This document shows, in pieces, positions 9,700 through 19,050 of a stretch of 64,000 nt of DNA. A program made the position numbers and the translations under genes. The notes beneath the pieces were generated by a model. The model did not search any database, was not told the DNA's origin, and saw only the letters and a program-made list of their open reading frames with translations. The stretch's first letter is position 1. Every line of letters starts with the position of its first letter. The stretch is from Deltaproteobacteria bacterium. Lineage in GTDB: Bacteria > Desulfobacterota > Syntrophobacteria > Syntrophobacterales > Syntrophobacteraceae. The DNA is taken from positions 42,146 to 106,145 of the forward strand of contig JAJYDE010000005.1 of NCBI GenBank assembly GCA_021777755.1, read 5' to 3'.

Positions 9700-11562
9700 A
9701 TGACTTCTTGGGGATTTTTTTCACCTGCCGGCCAGCAGCCTGTTCGGAGTCCGAGAAGCTACAGGCGCCCGGGGGGCGTACTCGCAGCCTTGATGGCCGC
9801 TGATCGGGATAAGGATTACCTGTTGGTGAAGAAGGCCTTCGCGGCGAGTCCGATCCGTGTGGATCTGCACCGGGTATTCGACGGGGCCGAAGCCATGGAC
9901 TACCTTTTGGGGAAGGGCAAATTTGAGGTCTCGGAAAGCTTTCCCCGTCCCGATCTCATCCTGCTCAACCTGATTATGCCGCGAAAGGGCGGTCTGGAGA
10001 CGCTACGCCTGATCAAGGGGACAGCAGACCTGCACACAATACCGGTCGTGTTGCTCGTCTCGTCCGAACTTCAGCTCCACGAGGCTTCCGGGCTCAGGCT
10101 TGGGGCTGATTCCTTCATTGTAAAGCCCCAGAGTTTCGATGAACTCGTGAAGATTTTGGGTGATCTTCATCAACACTATTTCGCCATCGTGCGGTTGCCC
10201 GAACCAGGGAAAATCCCGAAATTGCGCCTTGCGCGAAAACAGAAAGTATCCCCGCCGCGATGTGGTTCCTGCGAACCCGAACCGATGGATGGCGAGTGCC
10301 TCAGGCACAATGGTTCATTTGACGGAAGGCCGGAGGAACTCAAACGAGCCCGGAGGGCATGGCGGTTGAATGAATCGCGGCTGGATTCTCTTCTGGCCCT
10401 TGGCCGGATGAGCGGGACCTCGGCGGGCAAGGCGGTCGATTTTGTGCTCGAAGAGCAGGTGAGGCTTACCGGAAGCGAGGCGGGCTGGCTTGGTTTTGTA
10501 AGTGAAGACCAAACCCGTATTACTTTCCACCAACGGGTGGGAGGAAGAAGGGAGCAAAAGGGGGCTGGAGACCAAGGAGTGCATTTTCCCGTGCAATCGG
10601 GGGGGATCCTGGCCGATGCGCTCAAGGAGCGAAAAACACTTGTGGTAAACGACCGCTCGGCAGTCGAGTCGGAGAAGTTGGCATTTCCGGGCGACGGTTT
10701 TGTCTGCCGCCGTCTGCTCGTGACCCCTGTCTTTGAGGCCGACAGGGTAAGAGCTGTGGCGGTGGTTGCAAACAAGCGGGAAAATTACGATTCGAGCGAT
10801 GTAAAATATCATACTTTGCTGCTCGAAAATTTGCGGAAAATAATCGAGCGGGAGGAGGTGCGAAAAAGGCTCTCTCACATGGAGAGCCTCGCCGCAATGG
10901 GCAGTTCCGTATCGTGCTTGGCCCACGATATGAAGACGCCGCTTACGGCCATTGGAGGATTTGCCGGTCTTGTGCACAAAAGGATGGAGGGGGCCAATCC
11001 GGACCGAAGTAAACTCAAAATCGTTATCCACGAAACCCGACGACTTGAAGCCATGCTCGAAAACATTCTCGATTTTTCACGCCCCATACATTTTGAAAAA
11101 TCATTTATGGAAATGGACGAGGTGGTCAGGGGGAGTATCCATTTGCTCGATATGGAGGCAAAAAAACGTGATCTGAGTCTTCGGATTGTTATAGACCCGA
11201 GTCTTCCAAGGGCTCTTATCGATCCGTTTCGCATAGAGCGGGCGCTTCTGAATCTTGCGATCAATGCCATGCACTCATCGCCCCGGGGCGAGACGGTGAT
11301 AATCCACGTCCACGCAAGGCGGGCAGAACTCCTTTTGGATGTCATCGACCACGGCGCCGGAATAGACCCCGAAAAAAGAAAAGATATTTTCACTCCCTTT
11401 TTTACCACCAAGAAAAATGGAACCGGCCTGGGGCTTCCCATCGTTAAAAAGATCGTCGAAGCGCACAATGGCTGGATCAGCATAAGGGATAATCCGGATG
11501 GAGGGCTCACTTTCAGGGTGGGACTCCCGGACTGTTTGGAACAGAGCGAGGCTGAGGTTTGA
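9700..11562 (+). CDS. Receiver-GAF-histidine kinase; receiver lacks the phospho-acceptor Asp
   Basis: N-terminal receiver-like domain (DLILLNLIMPRKGG, FIVKP), GAF-like middle, HisKA H-box CLAHDMKTPLTAIGGF, HATPase NAINAMH/DHGAGI/GTGLGLPIVKKI. Confidence 0.88.
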   Translation: MTSWGFFSPAGQQPVRSPRSYRRPGGVLAALMAADRDKDYLLVKKAFAASPIRVDLHRVFDGAEAMDYLLGKGKFEVSESFPRPDLILLNLIMPRKGGLETLRLIKGTADLHTIPVVLLVSSELQLHEASGLRLGADSFIVKPQSFDELVKILGDLHQHYFAIVRLPEPGKIPKLRLARKQKVSPPRCGSCEPEPMDGECLRHNGSFDGRPEELKRARRAWRLNESRLDSLLALGRMSGTSAGKAVDFVLEEQVRLTGSEAGWLGFVSEDQTRITFHQRVGGRREQKGAGDQGVHFPVQSGGILADALKERKTLVVNDRSAVESEKLAFPGDGFVCRRLLVTPVFEADRVRAVAVVANKRENYDSSDVKYHTLLLENLRKIIEREEVRKRLSHMESLAAMGSSVSCLAHDMKTPLTAIGGFAGLVHKRMEGANPDRSKLKIVIHETRRLEAMLENILDFSRPIHFEKSFMEMDEVVRGSIHLLDMEAKKRDLSLRIVIDPSLPRALIDPFRIERALLNLAINAMHSSPRGETVIIHVHARRAELLLDVIDHGAGIDPEKRKDIFTPFFTTKKNGTGLGLPIVKKIVEAHNGWISIRDNPDGGLTFRVGLPDCLEQSEAEV

Positions 11563-11611: not shown

Positions 11612-14224
11612 CTAATTCTGCCCGGAAAAAACCTCCCCGGGGATTTGGACAGGCCAAAGGGCTCTTACCCTGGCACCCTCACCCGGCGCCGATTCCATGA
11701 AGAATTTTCCTCCCGATATCTCGGCCCTTTCCTTCATGCCCAAGAGCCCCAGGCTTTTGGCCGAAGCTGTTTTTAAAACATAGTCAAGCTCCATGCCTTT
11801 CCCGTCGTCGCTGATTTCGAGCTCGATTTTTCCGGCCCCCTCGGTGATGCGAGCATCTATCCATTCCGCGCCGCTGTGTTTGCAGGAGTTATTGAGCGCT
11901 TCCTGGGCAATCCTGAACATGGCGATCTTCAAGCCCTCGGGGATATCCTCCTCCCTTACCCCCATCTCCAACTCGATATGGATTTTGGTATAAACCCCCA
12001 TAAGCTGACGCCGATACCATTCAAGGGCCGCCAGAAATCCGTTGTCGGCAAGGACCGCGGGTTTTAACCCCATGTAGATCGTTCGGGTTTCATCGATGGA
12101 ACGCTGCAGGATTGGAACGAACTGGTCGAGCAGATTCGCCGCCTCTTCGGCTTTTCCATTTCGAACGAGACTTGAAATGTGCTCGATGCGAAATTTCAGG
12201 GCGGCCAGGGTCTGCCCGATGCTGTCGTGGAGTTCCGAAGCAAGCCTTTTGCTCTCGTTTTCCTGGACTTCGATCAGCTTGGAAGGCACAAGGCGCAGTT
12301 GTTCGTTGGCCGCTTCGAGGGAGGCTGTCCGCTCTATGACGCGTCTTTCGAGTTCAACCTCCATCTGTTTATGTTCTGTGATGTCCTGGGCCAGAATGGC
12401 AATATCGCCGCTTCCGGCCATGCGGACCACGGCAACTCGAAACCAGGTGGGTTTCAAGAGATGTTTGCCGTCGAAAAAGTCTTCCAGTACGCAGGTTGCA
12501 CCGGTTCGGACCACTTGCAGGTATGCTGCGAAAAATGACGACTCCCGGTGGTGGGGAAAAACCTCGAGCACTCTTCGCCCCACGACTTCTTTCGGCTCGG
12601 CGCCCCGCATCCGGGCTATCGCCGGATTTTCATAGATCCAGGTGAAATCGACCACGTCGCCGGCCTCGTCACGAACTGGCCTAAGGATGGTAAAGCCGTC
12701 GGGGGAAAGCTCCTGGGCCACCCGGAAGCGTTCTTCGCTCTCACGGAGGGCGTCCTCGGCCAGTTTGCGCTGGGTTATGTCGCTCGCCGCCCCGAACCAT
12801 TCGAAAATGTTGCCGTTTTCGTCCAGGAGCGGAATCGCTCTGGCAAACCTCCAGCCGTAGCCGCCGTCCGGGTTTCGAAACCGATACTCATGCTCGAAGG
12901 TGCTCCTGTTTCGGACGGCTTCCCTGATTTTTGCCGACATGGCCGTCCGATCGTCCGGGTGGATGCAGTTTTGGAGCCAATTTTCGTTAGGGTCGCCCTC
13001 GGCGTCCCGGCCGAAGAGGCGGTGGAGTGCTTCCCAGTTTGGCGCTATCTGATAAATGGCGTCCGAACTGGCCTGCGCCAGCGCGCGGAACCGCTCTTCG
13101 CTCCTCTTTAGCTCCCCGACCATTTGAGCTCGTTCGACAATAGTGGCGGTCTGGCGGGCCAGAATGCCCAGCAGTCGCAGCGTGCGTCCGTCCAGCCGTT
13201 TTTTTGCCCTGTAATAGGTGGAGAACACTCCGATCAGCGTTGCCGTCCGACTCACCAGCGGGGTGCATTGAACAGTTCGGATTCCGGCTTTGCGCATCAG
13301 TTCAAGGGCGGGGGTGCCGGCAAGCATGCGGCTTTCCTCAACCCCTTGGACGATTGTGCGTTTATTGCGGTTTAGTACCGCGCAGCAAGCCCCACGACCT
13401 TTGCAGACCTTGTTCCAGCAATCTGCCCACCATGACGGGAACCCTTGCTGGGAAACAACTCGAAGGTTGGAGCTTCGGCTATCGAGGAGTTGAACGGCGC
13501 CGAAATCAGCCCCTGAAATGGCCACCGCGGCTTCGACGATTTCGTCGAGGACCGGCTCGACGGCACCCTCTTTTGCAAACAGGGAACCGATCTTTTGCAG
13601 TCGCTTCATGGCCTCCAACTCGACCCGCAGGTGATTTTTCAACCCCAGCAGTTTTCCCTCCGCCCGTTTGCGCTCGGTGATATCTACAAAAACCAGCCGC
13701 CATCCGGTCAACTTGCGTTCTGGGTCAAATGCGGCCGCCAGCTCCAACTGAATAAACGATCGAGCTTCATCCTTTCCGACGGTTCTAAGCGTGCAGGTTC
13801 CTTTCCCGTCATCGCCTCTGGCAACACGTCTCATAAGATCGCGGAATTTTTCTCGATCATCGGCGTGGATGAACTGGCTGAATTGAATATTCGAGGGCAG
13901 AGGGGAAAGGATACCCAGTTTTTGCCGCGCGGCAATATTTGCCCGGCTGATAAAACCCTCGGGGCTAATATCGAGGCATCCCACCGGGGCATGCTGATAG
14001 AGATCGGCGTACCTTTTTCCGGATTGCTCCAAAGCGTCTCTGGCGGACCGAAGCTCCTCGTTTTGGAGTTCGAGTTTCACATGGTGGACTTCCAGTTCAT
14101 GGAGCAATCGGATGAGGTCGAATTCCAAAGGGTCCTGGCTGTCGCCATCGCGGCTTTTGAGGGCTTTCTCGGCCCTGCGGCGAAGCTCATCTAACCTGTC
14201 TTTCCAGATATGGGATCGGGCCAT
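11612..14224 (-). CDS. Multi-PAS/GAF sensor histidine kinase (HisKA_3, NarX-like)
   Basis: PAS repeats (YADLYQHAPVGCLDISPEG; FRALAQASSDAIYQIAP; FRVAQELSPDGFTILRP), GAF, H-box LASELHDSIGQTLAALKF, HATPase EALNNSCKHSG. Start set at internal Met (ORF opens at 14293). Confidence 0.88.
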   Translation of the reverse strand: MARSHIWKDRLDELRRRAEKALKSRDGDSQDPLEFDLIRLLHELEVHHVKLELQNEELRSARDALEQSGKRYADLYQHAPVGCLDISPEGFISRANIAARQKLGILSPLPSNIQFSQFIHADDREKFRDLMRRVARGDDGKGTCTLRTVGKDEARSFIQLELAAAFDPERKLTGWRLVFVDITERKRAEGKLLGLKNHLRVELEAMKRLQKIGSLFAKEGAVEPVLDEIVEAAVAISGADFGAVQLLDSRSSNLRVVSQQGFPSWWADCWNKVCKGRGACCAVLNRNKRTIVQGVEESRMLAGTPALELMRKAGIRTVQCTPLVSRTATLIGVFSTYYRAKKRLDGRTLRLLGILARQTATIVERAQMVGELKRSEERFRALAQASSDAIYQIAPNWEALHRLFGRDAEGDPNENWLQNCIHPDDRTAMSAKIREAVRNRSTFEHEYRFRNPDGGYGWRFARAIPLLDENGNIFEWFGAASDITQRKLAEDALRESEERFRVAQELSPDGFTILRPVRDEAGDVVDFTWIYENPAIARMRGAEPKEVVGRRVLEVFPHHRESSFFAAYLQVVRTGATCVLEDFFDGKHLLKPTWFRVAVVRMAGSGDIAILAQDITEHKQMEVELERRVIERTASLEAANEQLRLVPSKLIEVQENESKRLASELHDSIGQTLAALKFRIEHISSLVRNGKAEEAANLLDQFVPILQRSIDETRTIYMGLKPAVLADNGFLAALEWYRRQLMGVYTKIHIELEMGVREEDIPEGLKIAMFRIAQEALNNSCKHSGAEWIDARITEGAGKIELEISDDGKGMELDYVLKTASAKSLGLLGMKERAEISGGKFFMESAPGEGARVRALWPVQIPGEVFSGQN

Positions 14225-14503: not shown

Positions 14504-16096
14504 CTAGAACTTTTTTTCCGCAAGGGTGAAAAAAAAGGTCGTCCCGCGCCCGGGCTGAGAAGCGAGCCAAATCTTTCCTCCATGATATTCGATTATCCGC
14601 TTTACTATCGCAAGCCCCACGCCCGTTCCTTCCTGACTTTTCGACGATGGAAGACGTTCGAATACTCGGAAGATTTTTTCAAAAAACATCTCCTCGATTC
14701 CCATTCCGTTATCACGGACGAAAAACACCCATTGATCGTCCTTCTTTTCGGCCCCTATATCGATGCATGGGGCAGGGTTATCCTCACCCATGTACTTGAT
14801 CGCATTATTGAGTAGATTGTAGATCGCCTGGATCATTAGACTCTTTTCACAGCGGAGCGCAGGAAGATTTTCCCCGATATTGATCCTGATAGAGCGACTT
14901 TCAAGGTTGGGCCGAAGCGTTTCGAGCGCCTCCCGGACAATATCGGCGAAAGGAAGTGTGATCATCGAGCCGGGCCGTCGCCCGATTCGTGAAAGCTCGA
15001 GCAAATCATCGATGAGGGCTTCCATTTTTCGACCCGCCCCGCTCATGTAGTCCAGGTAGCTTTCGGCTTCTTCGGAAATGGAGGCGCCGAAGTCTTCCCG
15101 CAGCGCCCCGATGAACCCGCCGATGGTGACGATGGGGGTCTTTAGATCATGAGAAATGGTATAAACAAAGGATTCGAGTTCGGTGTTTTTGGCCGAAAGC
15201 TCGCCGACCAATTCTTCCAGCTCCTTTTCCTTCGCCTGCAAGACAGCCTCGATGCGCTTTCGCCGGGCAATTTCTTCGTGGGCCAGATCCCTTGACCTCC
15301 TGTAGGCGTCCATCCTCAGCAGCAGTTGATAAAAGAGCAGGGAAAGGGCGGCCGAAAGAGTGGTTCCAAAAAACAGGAACAGCAGTGCGTGAGGGGGGCT
15401 GGCGGTATAGAAGCCGCGAGCGGGCGCCATCGTAAGGCGCCATCTCCTCTCGCCCATGGGGATTTCGCGTATTGAGACAAGACCTTTTGCGGCAAGGTTT
15501 TGCGTGCCATACTGAAAGATCGTGCGCCCATGGTCTTTGATATTGACCACAAAGTCACTGATAAATTTACCGGGCATGGCGAAGTTGACCAGATCGGCCA
15601 CCTTGAACTCGCCGCACAGGTAGCCCTGAAGTCTTCCCCGCACCATCAGCGCAATAACGATGCAAAAGCCCTCGGTGCCCGAGGAAAGATCGAAACAGGG
15701 CGAGACCTCTTGGCCGGGAATCCATTGGAGCTTTTTGCCCAGCCTGCCGGCTTGCTCTTTTTTCGGATACACGTAGCCAATGAGGCCTTCGGGGTCGGCC
15801 CAGTATATGCCGGAAAAGCCGGGGAAATCGTTAAAAATGATCCTTGCAAATGAAAGAAAGCGGGCGCGGCCGAAATCATGGTTTTCGTCTTCCACCCACC
15901 TGGAGGCCAGCATTTCCAGGGTTGATTTGCGGCTTTCCATGATTGCACCGATACGGATTCCGGCTATCTGCGCCGAGCTTTCCACATGCCGGAAAACCAA
16001 CTGGCGCAGATGTTGGACTTCCACTCTCCACAGAACAACCGTAATGGAGGCGAAAAGGACAAATATTATTATCGAGGCTGATTTTCTCGATCTCAA
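14504..16096 (-). CDS. Membrane sensor histidine kinase with periplasmic sensor region
   Basis: N-terminal TM, extracytoplasmic domain (FSGIYWADPEGLIGYVYPKKEQAG), second TM (HALLFLFFGTTLSAALSLLFYQLLL), H-box YTISHDLKTPIVTIGGF, HATPase. Confidence 0.88.
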   Translation of the reverse strand: MRSRKSASIIIFVLFASITVVLWRVEVQHLRQLVFRHVESSAQIAGIRIGAIMESRKSTLEMLASRWVEDENHDFGRARFLSFARIIFNDFPGFSGIYWADPEGLIGYVYPKKEQAGRLGKKLQWIPGQEVSPCFDLSSGTEGFCIVIALMVRGRLQGYLCGEFKVADLVNFAMPGKFISDFVVNIKDHGRTIFQYGTQNLAAKGLVSIREIPMGERRWRLTMAPARGFYTASPPHALLFLFFGTTLSAALSLLFYQLLLRMDAYRRSRDLAHEEIARRKRIEAVLQAKEKELEELVGELSAKNTELESFVYTISHDLKTPIVTIGGFIGALREDFGASISEEAESYLDYMSGAGRKMEALIDDLLELSRIGRRPGSMITLPFADIVREALETLRPNLESRSIRINIGENLPALRCEKSLMIQAIYNLLNNAIKYMGEDNPAPCIDIGAEKKDDQWVFFVRDNGMGIEEMFFEKIFRVFERLPSSKSQEGTGVGLAIVKRIIEYHGGKIWLASQPGRGTTFFFTLAEKKF

Positions 16097-16118: not shown

Positions 16119-17852
16119 TCACAGCGCCCTGGCGATTGTGATTCGGAATACCACTCCCTTGCCGTGGCCGGACTCGACTTCGACTTTCCCGCCGTGCCTC
16201 TCGGCGATTTCCCTGACTATATTCAGTCCCAGGCCGGTTCCGGGAATGGGCGCCGAACTTTCGGCGCGGTGGAAAGCGCGGAAGATCGAAGCACAGTCCT
16301 CCTTCTTCATGGCCGCCCCGTCATTGCTCACCAGGATGGTGCAGAAGCCGGGAGTTTGCTCGCAGCCGATCTTTATTTCACTCAATGCGTTTCCGCCGTA
16401 CTTTAGAGCATTGTCCACAAGATTGGTAAACAACCTGGTCATGGCCAGCCGGTCGGCCACGATTTCCACATCGGTTTGCGACTGGATCCAGCGAATACTT
16501 CGAGCCCTCAGCCGATCGGAAAATTCTTCCCGCACCGTGTGGATAAGATCGTCAAGCAGCACAGGTTCGACATTTAGCGGGGCCTGTTTGGCGGCTATGT
16601 AATCGTTTATCTCGCCGATAAGCCCCGAACAGTATTCGGATGCTTTCATGATCTGTTGGCAATATTTTCTGCCCCTCTCATCGACTCTGTCGCCATACTG
16701 CTTTTTAAACAGCCTGGTCAGGCCGTAGATGGCGACGGTTGGACTCTTCAGGTCGTGCATGACTGAATAGGCAAAGAGTTTGAGATCTTCGGTGCTTTTG
16801 GCCAGGGCTTGCTGGGCGCGAATGCGCTCTTCGATTTCCTGGCGCAGCTTGTCGTTTGCAAGGGCAAGTTCGGCGGTGCGCCGGCTGACGCGCGCTTCGA
16901 GCTGCTCCTGGGCGCTTCGCAAGTCCTCGACGGCCTTAAGGCGTCTGAGCGCGGCGCCAAGTTCCATGGCAGCCCGCTCCAGCACCTCGATCGAAGCCGG
17001 CGAGAACATATCCGGTTCCCCGTCGGCGATATAGGCCAGCCCAAGATTTAAATCGGCCAGCCTTACCGGAACCAGAGCGACCGATTCGTATTCTGCCAGG
17101 CGACACACCGCGGCCCGGAGCATTCCTTTTGGCGCCCGCACATCTTCGGTGGGCGATGAGGAGCCGCGGTTGGCATAAAGCGAACCCGACCGGGTGGAGA
17201 CGATGGAGCAAAAGCGCTCATCCTCCGTGTTGATTCCCGTAAGAAACTGCTCGCAGGGCGGTCGGCGGGTCGCAGGGACCAACGGCCCCCGTACAAGGAA
17301 CTCACAGCTTTCACAGAGGGTCGAACGGCCTTGCTCGAAAATCCGGACAGCGGCCACCGAGCAGCCCGTAAAACGTTTTACAAGGGCAGTGAAATTATCG
17401 ATCAACTCGGCGAGTTCCACGCTCCTGTTGGCGGCTTCCAAAAAACGGTAGGAAATCTCCAATGAATCTTGCAGCCTGCGTTCGCGCAGGACCTTATCGA
17501 TAGCGCCAGGCAGGAGTCTGAAAAATTCCGGAGTCTTTACCACATAATCGGCGGCCCCCGATTTCAGGGCCCTTACGGCCGTCGTTTCATCCCCCTGCCC
17601 CGTTATCATTATCACGGGAGCCAAGTTGTTTTTTCGCCGCAGCCTTTCGAGAAATTCCAGGCCGTTCAAGCCCGGCAGAAGATAGTCCGAGATTATCAGA
17701 TCGGGCTTCAGCCGCTCTATTGCCTCCAGGCAGGAGGAAGCTTCGGAAAAATGATCGATCACCGCGCACGGCAATTCCTTCAAAACAGCTCTTTTCATCA
17801 ACTGAAGATGGGCTTCTTCATCTTCGAGGATGACCAGATGTAATGTTTTCAT
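16119..17852 (-). CDS. Receiver-GAF-histidine kinase
   Basis: MKTLHLVILEDEEAHLQLMKRA...LIISDYLLPGLNGLEFL (canonical receiver), Cys-containing GAF, H-box YSVMHDLKSPTVAIYGL, HATPase. Start at internal Met (ORF opens 17891). Confidence 0.88.
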   Translation of the reverse strand: MKTLHLVILEDEEAHLQLMKRAVLKELPCAVIDHFSEASSCLEAIERLKPDLIISDYLLPGLNGLEFLERLRRKNNLAPVIMITGQGDETTAVRALKSGAADYVVKTPEFFRLLPGAIDKVLRERRLQDSLEISYRFLEAANRSVELAELIDNFTALVKRFTGCSVAAVRIFEQGRSTLCESCEFLVRGPLVPATRRPPCEQFLTGINTEDERFCSIVSTRSGSLYANRGSSSPTEDVRAPKGMLRAAVCRLAEYESVALVPVRLADLNLGLAYIADGEPDMFSPASIEVLERAAMELGAALRRLKAVEDLRSAQEQLEARVSRRTAELALANDKLRQEIEERIRAQQALAKSTEDLKLFAYSVMHDLKSPTVAIYGLTRLFKKQYGDRVDERGRKYCQQIMKASEYCSGLIGEINDYIAAKQAPLNVEPVLLDDLIHTVREEFSDRLRARSIRWIQSQTDVEIVADRLAMTRLFTNLVDNALKYGGNALSEIKIGCEQTPGFCTILVSNDGAAMKKEDCASIFRAFHRAESSAPIPGTGLGLNIVREIAERHGGKVEVESGHGKGVVFRITIARAL

Positions 17853-18300
17853 GAGACAACATCTCCTGGCCCAAAAGTGAAAGGTCCGCACAGTACCGGA
17901 TGATTGGCGCTCAAAGGACTGGATAATCGGACCGGAAATGCCTTTGATCCATTCGGATAAATCGAGCAGAGCAAGAAGCTCGCCAAACAGATTGTTTTCC
18001 GAATAAGACCACGCTCAGGGCTTCGCTCAGCCCAGATCGAGCAAAGACGGAGCGAACGGGGAGGAGGGGAGACCGAGGGGTTGAGCTCTCTGCAATTGAT
18101 ACACCTGCAACTTATGAATGACACTTTTTCGCTCTTGGAATCAAACGCAAGACAGGCTCCGGGGACGCCGGCTACAAGACTCGGCGCTCCATATATCTGG
18201 CATCATTTTTGATAACGCTATCCTTCAAGAACCGACAAGGCGGCGCTTAGTGTGGACGGGGGCGCCCGAGCCTCAAACGAGAATTAGTCCGAGGGAAGCC

Positions 18301-19050
18301 ATGAAAAGATTCGAGACCAAAGGCAAGGTCTATCTGCTTGACGAGGGCGGGTTTCTCCTCGACAAGGAACAATGGGACGAGGATTTTGCCAAGGGCCTGG
18401 CGCCCGAGGTGGGAATCACGGAGGGTCTTGGCCACGCCCACTGGGAGGTCTTGAGGTTTATCCGCGACACATACGGGCAAACCGGCTTGTGCCCGGTGGT
18501 CTACAAGACCTGCAGGGCCAGGGGGCTAAACATTAAGGACCTTCAAAGGCTTTTTCCCTCCGGCTATCAGCGGGGAGCGTGCAAGCTTGCCGGCCTGTCT
18601 TTCAGGACTGCGGTTTTGAAGCAGGCAGAGCTTGAGTTCCTGCAAGAGGCCAGTAAGCTCAAGGGCCGGTCTTCGCCTGCAAAGGCGGCGACAGCGGTGC
18701 CCCTGGCAAAACCGATTGCTCCGCAAGAACGGATCTACCGGGTAAACGTGCAGGGTTTTCTAATCGATCCGAGCCAGTGGGATGAAGACTTCGCCATCTT
18801 CAAAGCCTGCGAACTCCAGGGGAACTGCCCTCTTGGAAAAAAGCACTGGCGAATCATCCTGCATTTGCGCTCGGAATACGAAAAGACCGGCGAGGTTCCA
18901 ACCGTTTATGCCCTTTGCGAGGCCGTCGGGATCGATGTGGATGAACTCGCCGAACTTTTTCCAACCGGCTATCATCGCGGAGCGGTAAAAATTGCGGGCC
19001 TCAACCTCGGACTAAAAAGGAGCACCGGCGCCGGTGTGGAATCGGTGTGA
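18301..19050 (+). CDS. Tandem two-domain DsrC/TusE-like protein
   Basis: Two DsrC-type units: GKVYLLDEGGFLLDKEQWDEDFAKGLAPEVGI..LGHAHWEVLRFIRDTYGQTGLCPVVYKTC...LFPSGYQRGACKLAGL and YRVNVQGFLIDPSQWDEDFAIFKACELQGN..LGKKHWRIILHLRSEYEKTGEVPTVYALCE...LFPTGYHRGAVKIAGL. ATG at 18301. Confidence 0.88.
   Translation: MKRFETKGKVYLLDEGGFLLDKEQWDEDFAKGLAPEVGITEGLGHAHWEVLRFIRDTYGQTGLCPVVYKTCRARGLNIKDLQRLFPSGYQRGACKLAGLSFRTAVLKQAELEFLQEASKLKGRSSPAKAATAVPLAKPIAPQERIYRVNVQGFLIDPSQWDEDFAIFKACELQGNCPLGKKHWRIILHLRSEYEKTGEVPTVYALCEAVGIDVDELAELFPTGYHRGAVKIAGLNLGLKRSTGAGVESV

Follow-up and report, generated by a model that had tools for sequence, protein, structure and literature searches.

DsrC is the central carrier of sulfur and electrons in dissimilatory sulfate reduction. 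The sulfur-carrying protein forms a trisulfide with DsrAB that is reduced by DsrMK(JOP), and canonical sequences contain two relevant cysteines, with CysB located ~11 residues upstream of the penultimate CysA. In A. vinosum, sulfur is bound exclusively at the penultimate cysteine of DsrC and CysB is irrelevant; strict conservation of CysA among DsrC sequences has been described, and TusE-type proteins retain CysA without CysB (PMC3397948). DsrC of D. vulgaris interacts with Flx-Hdr (PMC10504309), and Tmc has been hypothesised to act as an electron donor to DsrC (PMC5539420).

Architecture and distribution of the tandem protein

The initial annotation described two complete DsrC-like units in one polypeptide within the window (the whole 64,000-nucleotide stretch analysed here) and named two findings that would overturn this description: a half that does not match the DsrC family or structure prediction, and a stop or frameshift separating two ordinary dsrC genes. 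The gene consisted of a single ORF of 249 amino acids with an ATG start and no internal stop (Table 1), and each half matched the family separately: against PF04358 (cut-off, 24.9 bits), unit 1 scored 76.5 bits and unit 2 scored 64.4 bits. With TIGR03342 (cut-off, 53.5), unit 1 was above the threshold at 59.6 bits and unit 2 was below it at 45.9 bits. The protein scored 62.8 bits with the TusE equivalog model NF008562 (NCBIfam), far under the cut-off of 191, and a Pfam search detected DsrC domains only, with no receiver or kinase domain. The two units were 42% identical to each other, and units 1 and 2 were 35% and 27% identical, respectively, to the genome's own canonical DsrC.

A full-length model was generated with AlphaFold2 from an alignment of 18 window and locus sequences. 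This model (pLDDT, 82.9) exhibited two confident domains and a disordered linker, with pLDDT values of mostly 85 to 97 in unit 1 and low values at residues 104-111 and 123-137 of the linker, the length of which differed among relatives in the tandem alignment. The pTM was 0.51, indicating that the orientation of one unit relative to the other is not fixed by the model. The top PDB match of the whole model was DsrC (2xsj_C; TM of 0.89 by target), and unit 2 modelled alone (pLDDT, 87.5; pTM, 0.80) matched D. vulgaris DsrC (2v4j_C; TM of 0.79-0.82). By profile and fold, the tandem protein is a member of the DsrC/TusE superfamily (PF04358), bearing out the first description of its two units.

Table 1. 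Features of the tandem gene and its surroundings, with positions given within the window
Feature	Position	Strand	Evidence or remarks
Receiver-GAF histidine kinase	9793..11562	+	HATPase_c
PAS/GAF histidine kinase	11612..14224	-	HATPase_c
Sensor histidine kinase	14504..16096	-	HisKA, HATPase_c; 67-73% identical neighbour in L042, L043 and L044
Receiver and histidine kinase	16119..17852	-	Response_reg, HATPase_c; divergent from tandem gene; 73% identical neighbour in L042 and L043
Sigma-54-like promoter site, TGGCATCATTTTTGA	18198..18212	+	~90 bp upstream of start codon; consensus only, -12 GC is GA
Tandem DsrC-like protein	18301..19050	+	249 aa, monocistronic in window; two Pfam DsrC stretches, E 4.2e-40
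Unit 1, DsrC domain, residues 6-100	18316..18600	+	PF04358, TIGR03342, model pLDDT
Cys64 codon	18490..18492	+	Conserved in 26/28 tandems
Cys71 codon	18511..18513	+	Conserved in 23/28 tandems
Cys94 codon, CysB of unit 1	18580..18582	+	25/25 type-1 and 0/3 type-2 tandems
Linker, residues 101-141, where the CysA-bearing C-terminal arm of unit 1 would be	18601..18723	+	Low pLDDT, variable length
Unit 2, DsrC domain, residues 142-236	18724..19008	+	PF04358; structure predicted alone
Cys206 codon, unit 2, equivalent to Cys71	18916..18918	+	28/28 tandems
Val229 codon, in place of unit 2 CysB	18985..18987	+	No aligned unit 2 has Cys here

A survey was performed on 26 genomes of the family to which the window belongs and on 395 genomes drawn from the phylum. 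Tandem DsrC was detected in 11 of the 26 family genomes and, outside the family, in five of the 395, belonging to three other families (G376, G106, G326, G136 and G064). In total, 28 proteins had this architecture, and the 16 genomes encoding them were assembled independently. Orthologues of the window tandem were present in five congeners (65-71% identity), and a second tandem gene of the same genome, on contig C6 and designated type 2, was 42% identical to the window tandem. A scan of genome contigs with the window tandem as query, which depends on exact peptide words, yielded no genes other than the single-domain TusE-like L039-L041.

The genome around the window is a 103-contig draft, a feature compatible with the tandem being an assembly artefact. 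Recurrence of the same architecture in this many proteins and independent assemblies, however, excludes chance and artefact. In codon comparisons, dN/dS was ~0.15-0.23 for unit 1, ~0.09-0.20 for unit 2 and 0.27-0.51 for the linker. These values indicate that the two units are under similar purifying selection and that unit 2, although poor in cysteines, is not degenerating, so that an artefact or a decaying duplication has a negligible probability. The proposal of an "active/inactive" pseudo-dimer was likewise not upheld, as selection on both halves is similar and unit 2 has an invariant cysteine of its own, Cys206.

A maximum-likelihood tree was constructed from 93 domains and 106 columns, an alignment short enough that many of its forks are unsure. 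All tandem halves formed one clade (100/100), separate from canonical DsrC and from two single-domain paralogue families, and all second halves formed one clade (100/99) to which the first halves were paraphyletic. This pattern of nested clades points to one early fusion origin and fits a single early duplication-fusion, after which unit 2 lost CysB.

The genome containing the window has dsrA, dsrB, aprA and canonical dsrC, the last as one copy on contig C69 directly behind dsrA and dsrB. All tandem-bearing hosts except G005 contained dsrA, which was split across two contigs in G021. G005 lacked both dsrA and canonical dsrC, which might have signalled independence from sulfate reduction. This reading was rejected, as aprA is present in this genome, so that one lost contig suffices and is the likely cause.

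Cysteine pattern of the two units

CysA and CysB were both present in all 21 aligned canonical DsrC sequences. The window tandem contains six cysteines, at residues 64, 71, 94, 170, 176 and 206. The codons of CysB in unit 1 and of the valine replacing it in unit 2 were read as in the initial annotation, and the reported lack of the terminal cysteine (CysA) from both units applied to the window protein and extended to all 28 tandems in the alignment. The cysteine asymmetry is a family-wide rule among type-1 tandems (25/25), with CysB always present in unit 1 and never in unit 2. The claim that only the upstream cysteine is kept was true for the two canonical DsrC positions but not for the protein overall, in which Cys64 and Cys206 belong to the conserved set. 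The position of Cys71 is also a cysteine in 9 of the 21 canonical sequences, making this residue less specific to the tandem family. The three type-2 tandems, from three genomes, lacked Cys94 and kept Cys64, Cys71 and Cys206, indicating that CysB chemistry is not the common denominator of the tandems.

The tandem fails the defining feature of sulfur-carrying DsrC, namely, CysA on a flexible C-terminal arm. A conserved, fused paralogue in which the fold is kept and the sulfur-carrying cysteine is gone suggests that the DsrC fold has a second role other than carrying sulfur, and profile-based counts of 'dsrC' genes would overestimate the number of sulfur carriers. Our preferred interpretation, with a probability of roughly 45%, is that ancient tandem DsrC paralogues ceased to carry sulfur and serve as thiol-redox partner proteins or sensors; the tandem probably reads or relays redox state rather than carrying sulfur. 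The DsrC-type surfaces would let it dock on the partners of DsrC, and a protein without CysA could not present sulfur at the siroheme of sulfite reductase. Cys94, perhaps with Cys206 or Cys64, could form a mixed disulfide or undergo transient persulfidation, its state following the thiol/persulfide state of the sulfite-reduction pathway. For type 1, including the window tandem, this thiol state would be handed to the adjacent kinases, and for type 2 it would be exchanged with an HdrD-like complex.

Genomic neighbourhoods and candidate functions

Four sensor kinases beside the tandem gene had been taken as a hint of redox/sulfur signalling. All four contained HATPase_c and were located upstream of the tandem gene, which is transcribed away from them and shares no operon with them. 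At least one homologous kinase (67-73% identity) was kept beside the tandem gene at orthologue loci L042, L043 and L044, whereas at L045 the gene lay beside other kinases or a fragment of one. A further sensor kinase was found on the opposite side of the gene in L042, L044 and L045, and a truncated one in L043. Independently placed signalling contexts were detected at L049, with the tandem gene in a regulator/kinase cluster; at L102, from another family, with the tandem as the last gene of a co-directional kinase/regulator cluster; and at L052, with a multi-PAS kinase directly downstream. An immediate signalling neighbour was present in 4 of ~13-15 independent tandem contexts versus a baseline of 4/124 genes, giving a binomial p of ~6e-4 with this small measured baseline and of ~0.02, by hand arithmetic, with a doubled baseline. 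Many tandem loci, such as L047, L048, L050, L053 and L104-L107, had no signalling neighbour.

The signalling neighbourhood was borne out: it is partly kept within the genus and arose independently at three further loci, but the window gene is divergent from its kinases and the statistic is modest. Kinase adjacency suggests a statistically modest link of the tandem to signalling. A more specific possibility, which we regard as doubtful, is that the tandem represents a new class of sulfur/redox signal adaptor that docks at DsrC sites, senses DsrC persulfide or trisulfide via one conserved cysteine and feeds two-component kinases, in which case sulfate reducers would measure sulfite-reduction flux at the protein level. 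Coupling of the sulfite-reduction state to kinases or to Hdr/Tmc by the tandem would provide a testable answer to the question of respiratory-flux sensing in these organisms. At L102, the gene located 3 bp upstream of the tandem (L102:5075-6352, minus strand) encoded a fusion of a response-regulator receiver and a formate/nitrite-transporter (FNT) domain.

The sigma-54-like consensus matched once in the window, ahead of the tandem gene, versus 0.02 matches expected, and similar sites were present upstream of orthologues L042, L044 and L045. No clear operator was detected in the divergent intergenic region, which had one short motif and the sigma-54-like site in three of the four orthologues. 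These shared elements could be read in favour of a DNA-binding regulator that uses the helix-turn-helix-like segment within the DsrC fold and places its two units on a two-fold site, as could very weak fold matches to the DNA-binding domains of LexA and Rex. With E values of ~0.5 or worse, however, the fold matches were not significant, and we consider this function very unlikely.

Other tandems were associated with electron-transfer genes. The type-2 tandem of the same genome was the last gene of an operon with TmcC/HmcE-, TmcB/HmcF- and TmcA-like genes (L007:4856-8004), and this Tmc/Hmc-like operon with a type-2 tandem recurred in L055 and L056. An HdrD-like gene was next in line after the tandem at L046, with HdrA nearby, while the tandems of L101 were located in a cluster of complex-I-type hydrogenase and formate dehydrogenase genes. 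Together with the DsrC-Flx-Hdr interaction of D. vulgaris (PMC10504309), these contexts would suit a pure thiol-disulfide electron shuttle for HdrD/DsrK/TmcB-type CCG proteins, the kinases of type 1 being incidental or merely regulating the tandem. Such a shuttle is possible and on balance improbable, as type 2 is without Cys94, leaving only Cys64, Cys71 and Cys206 in common to both types, and as kinase adjacency repeats at unrelated loci. The recurrent neighbours as a whole, comprising kinases/regulators and HdrD-like, Tmc-like and hydrogenase/formate dehydrogenase genes, fit the thiol-redox partner or sensor that we prefer.

A small gene was observed behind two consecutive tandem-DsrC genes at L103 (10220-10534, plus strand) and L104 (8733-9048, minus strand). 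Codon 70 of this gene was an in-frame TGA in both genomes, and the stretch behind it, identical in the two, contained a short hairpin (z, -1.0 to -1.3). Pfam DsrE was detected with an E of 0.083 in one copy and not in the other, and the gene possibly encodes a DsrE-like selenoprotein.

The tandem had also been proposed to be a one-thiol persulfide carrier, acting via Cys94. Its membership of the TusE/DsrC sulfur-relay family and the location of the L103/L104 tandems ahead of the possible DsrE-like gene would be in keeping with this role, but the DsrE identification is weak. Moreover, the residue that binds sulfur in A. vinosum is CysA and not CysB (PMC3397948), and CysA is missing from all 28 tandems, making a carrier function unlikely.

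Comparison with known DsrC and TusE proteins

In the literature searched, which took in few subscription papers and not the main DsrC review, no description was found of a tandem DsrC family or of DsrC beside kinases, nor was any paper treating DsrC, TusE and RspA together. From the sequence comparisons, the tandem appears to be a real, conserved variant of the known DsrC family that is apparently undescribed, an earlier published mention being possible.

The tandem resembles canonical DsrC (PF04358, TIGR03342) in the fold of each half, in the LFPxG..(K/R)GAC motif of unit 1 and in the presence of dsrAB in the host. It differs in having two units per chain, no CysA, a C-terminal arm that is replaced by the linker or truncated, a unit 2 without CysB, the extra cysteines C64 and C206, and a change from GPxKGAC to GYxRGAC (P to Y). 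TusE, which functions in the E. coli sulfur relay to MnmA, belongs to the same superfamily, but the TusE-type pattern of CysA without CysB is the inverse of that of the tandem.

Single-domain paralogues from the same genus (L063-L067) share with the tandem the presence of CysB without CysA; unlike the tandem, they have one unit, an FPDP..ACKIAGIPKLxTGY ending, a clade of their own and other neighbours. This single-domain family is conserved in the genus, with L068 lacking CysB as well. A further set of single-domain DsrC/TusE-like genes (L057-L062 and L069) has CysA only and adjoins genes named, by sequence reading, as cysteine desulfurase-like and molybdenum hydroxylase-like; these paralogues may supply sulfur or selenium to the molybdenum enzyme. 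A carrier makes sense in that setting within the same genus, which favours a non-carrier role for the tandem. The nearest relative in architecture is the type-2 tandem (G000 contig C6, L007), which shares the fused arrangement, the clade and C64, C71 and C206 with the window tandem but differs from it in having no Cys94 and in being located in the operon of a Tmc/Hmc-like membrane complex.
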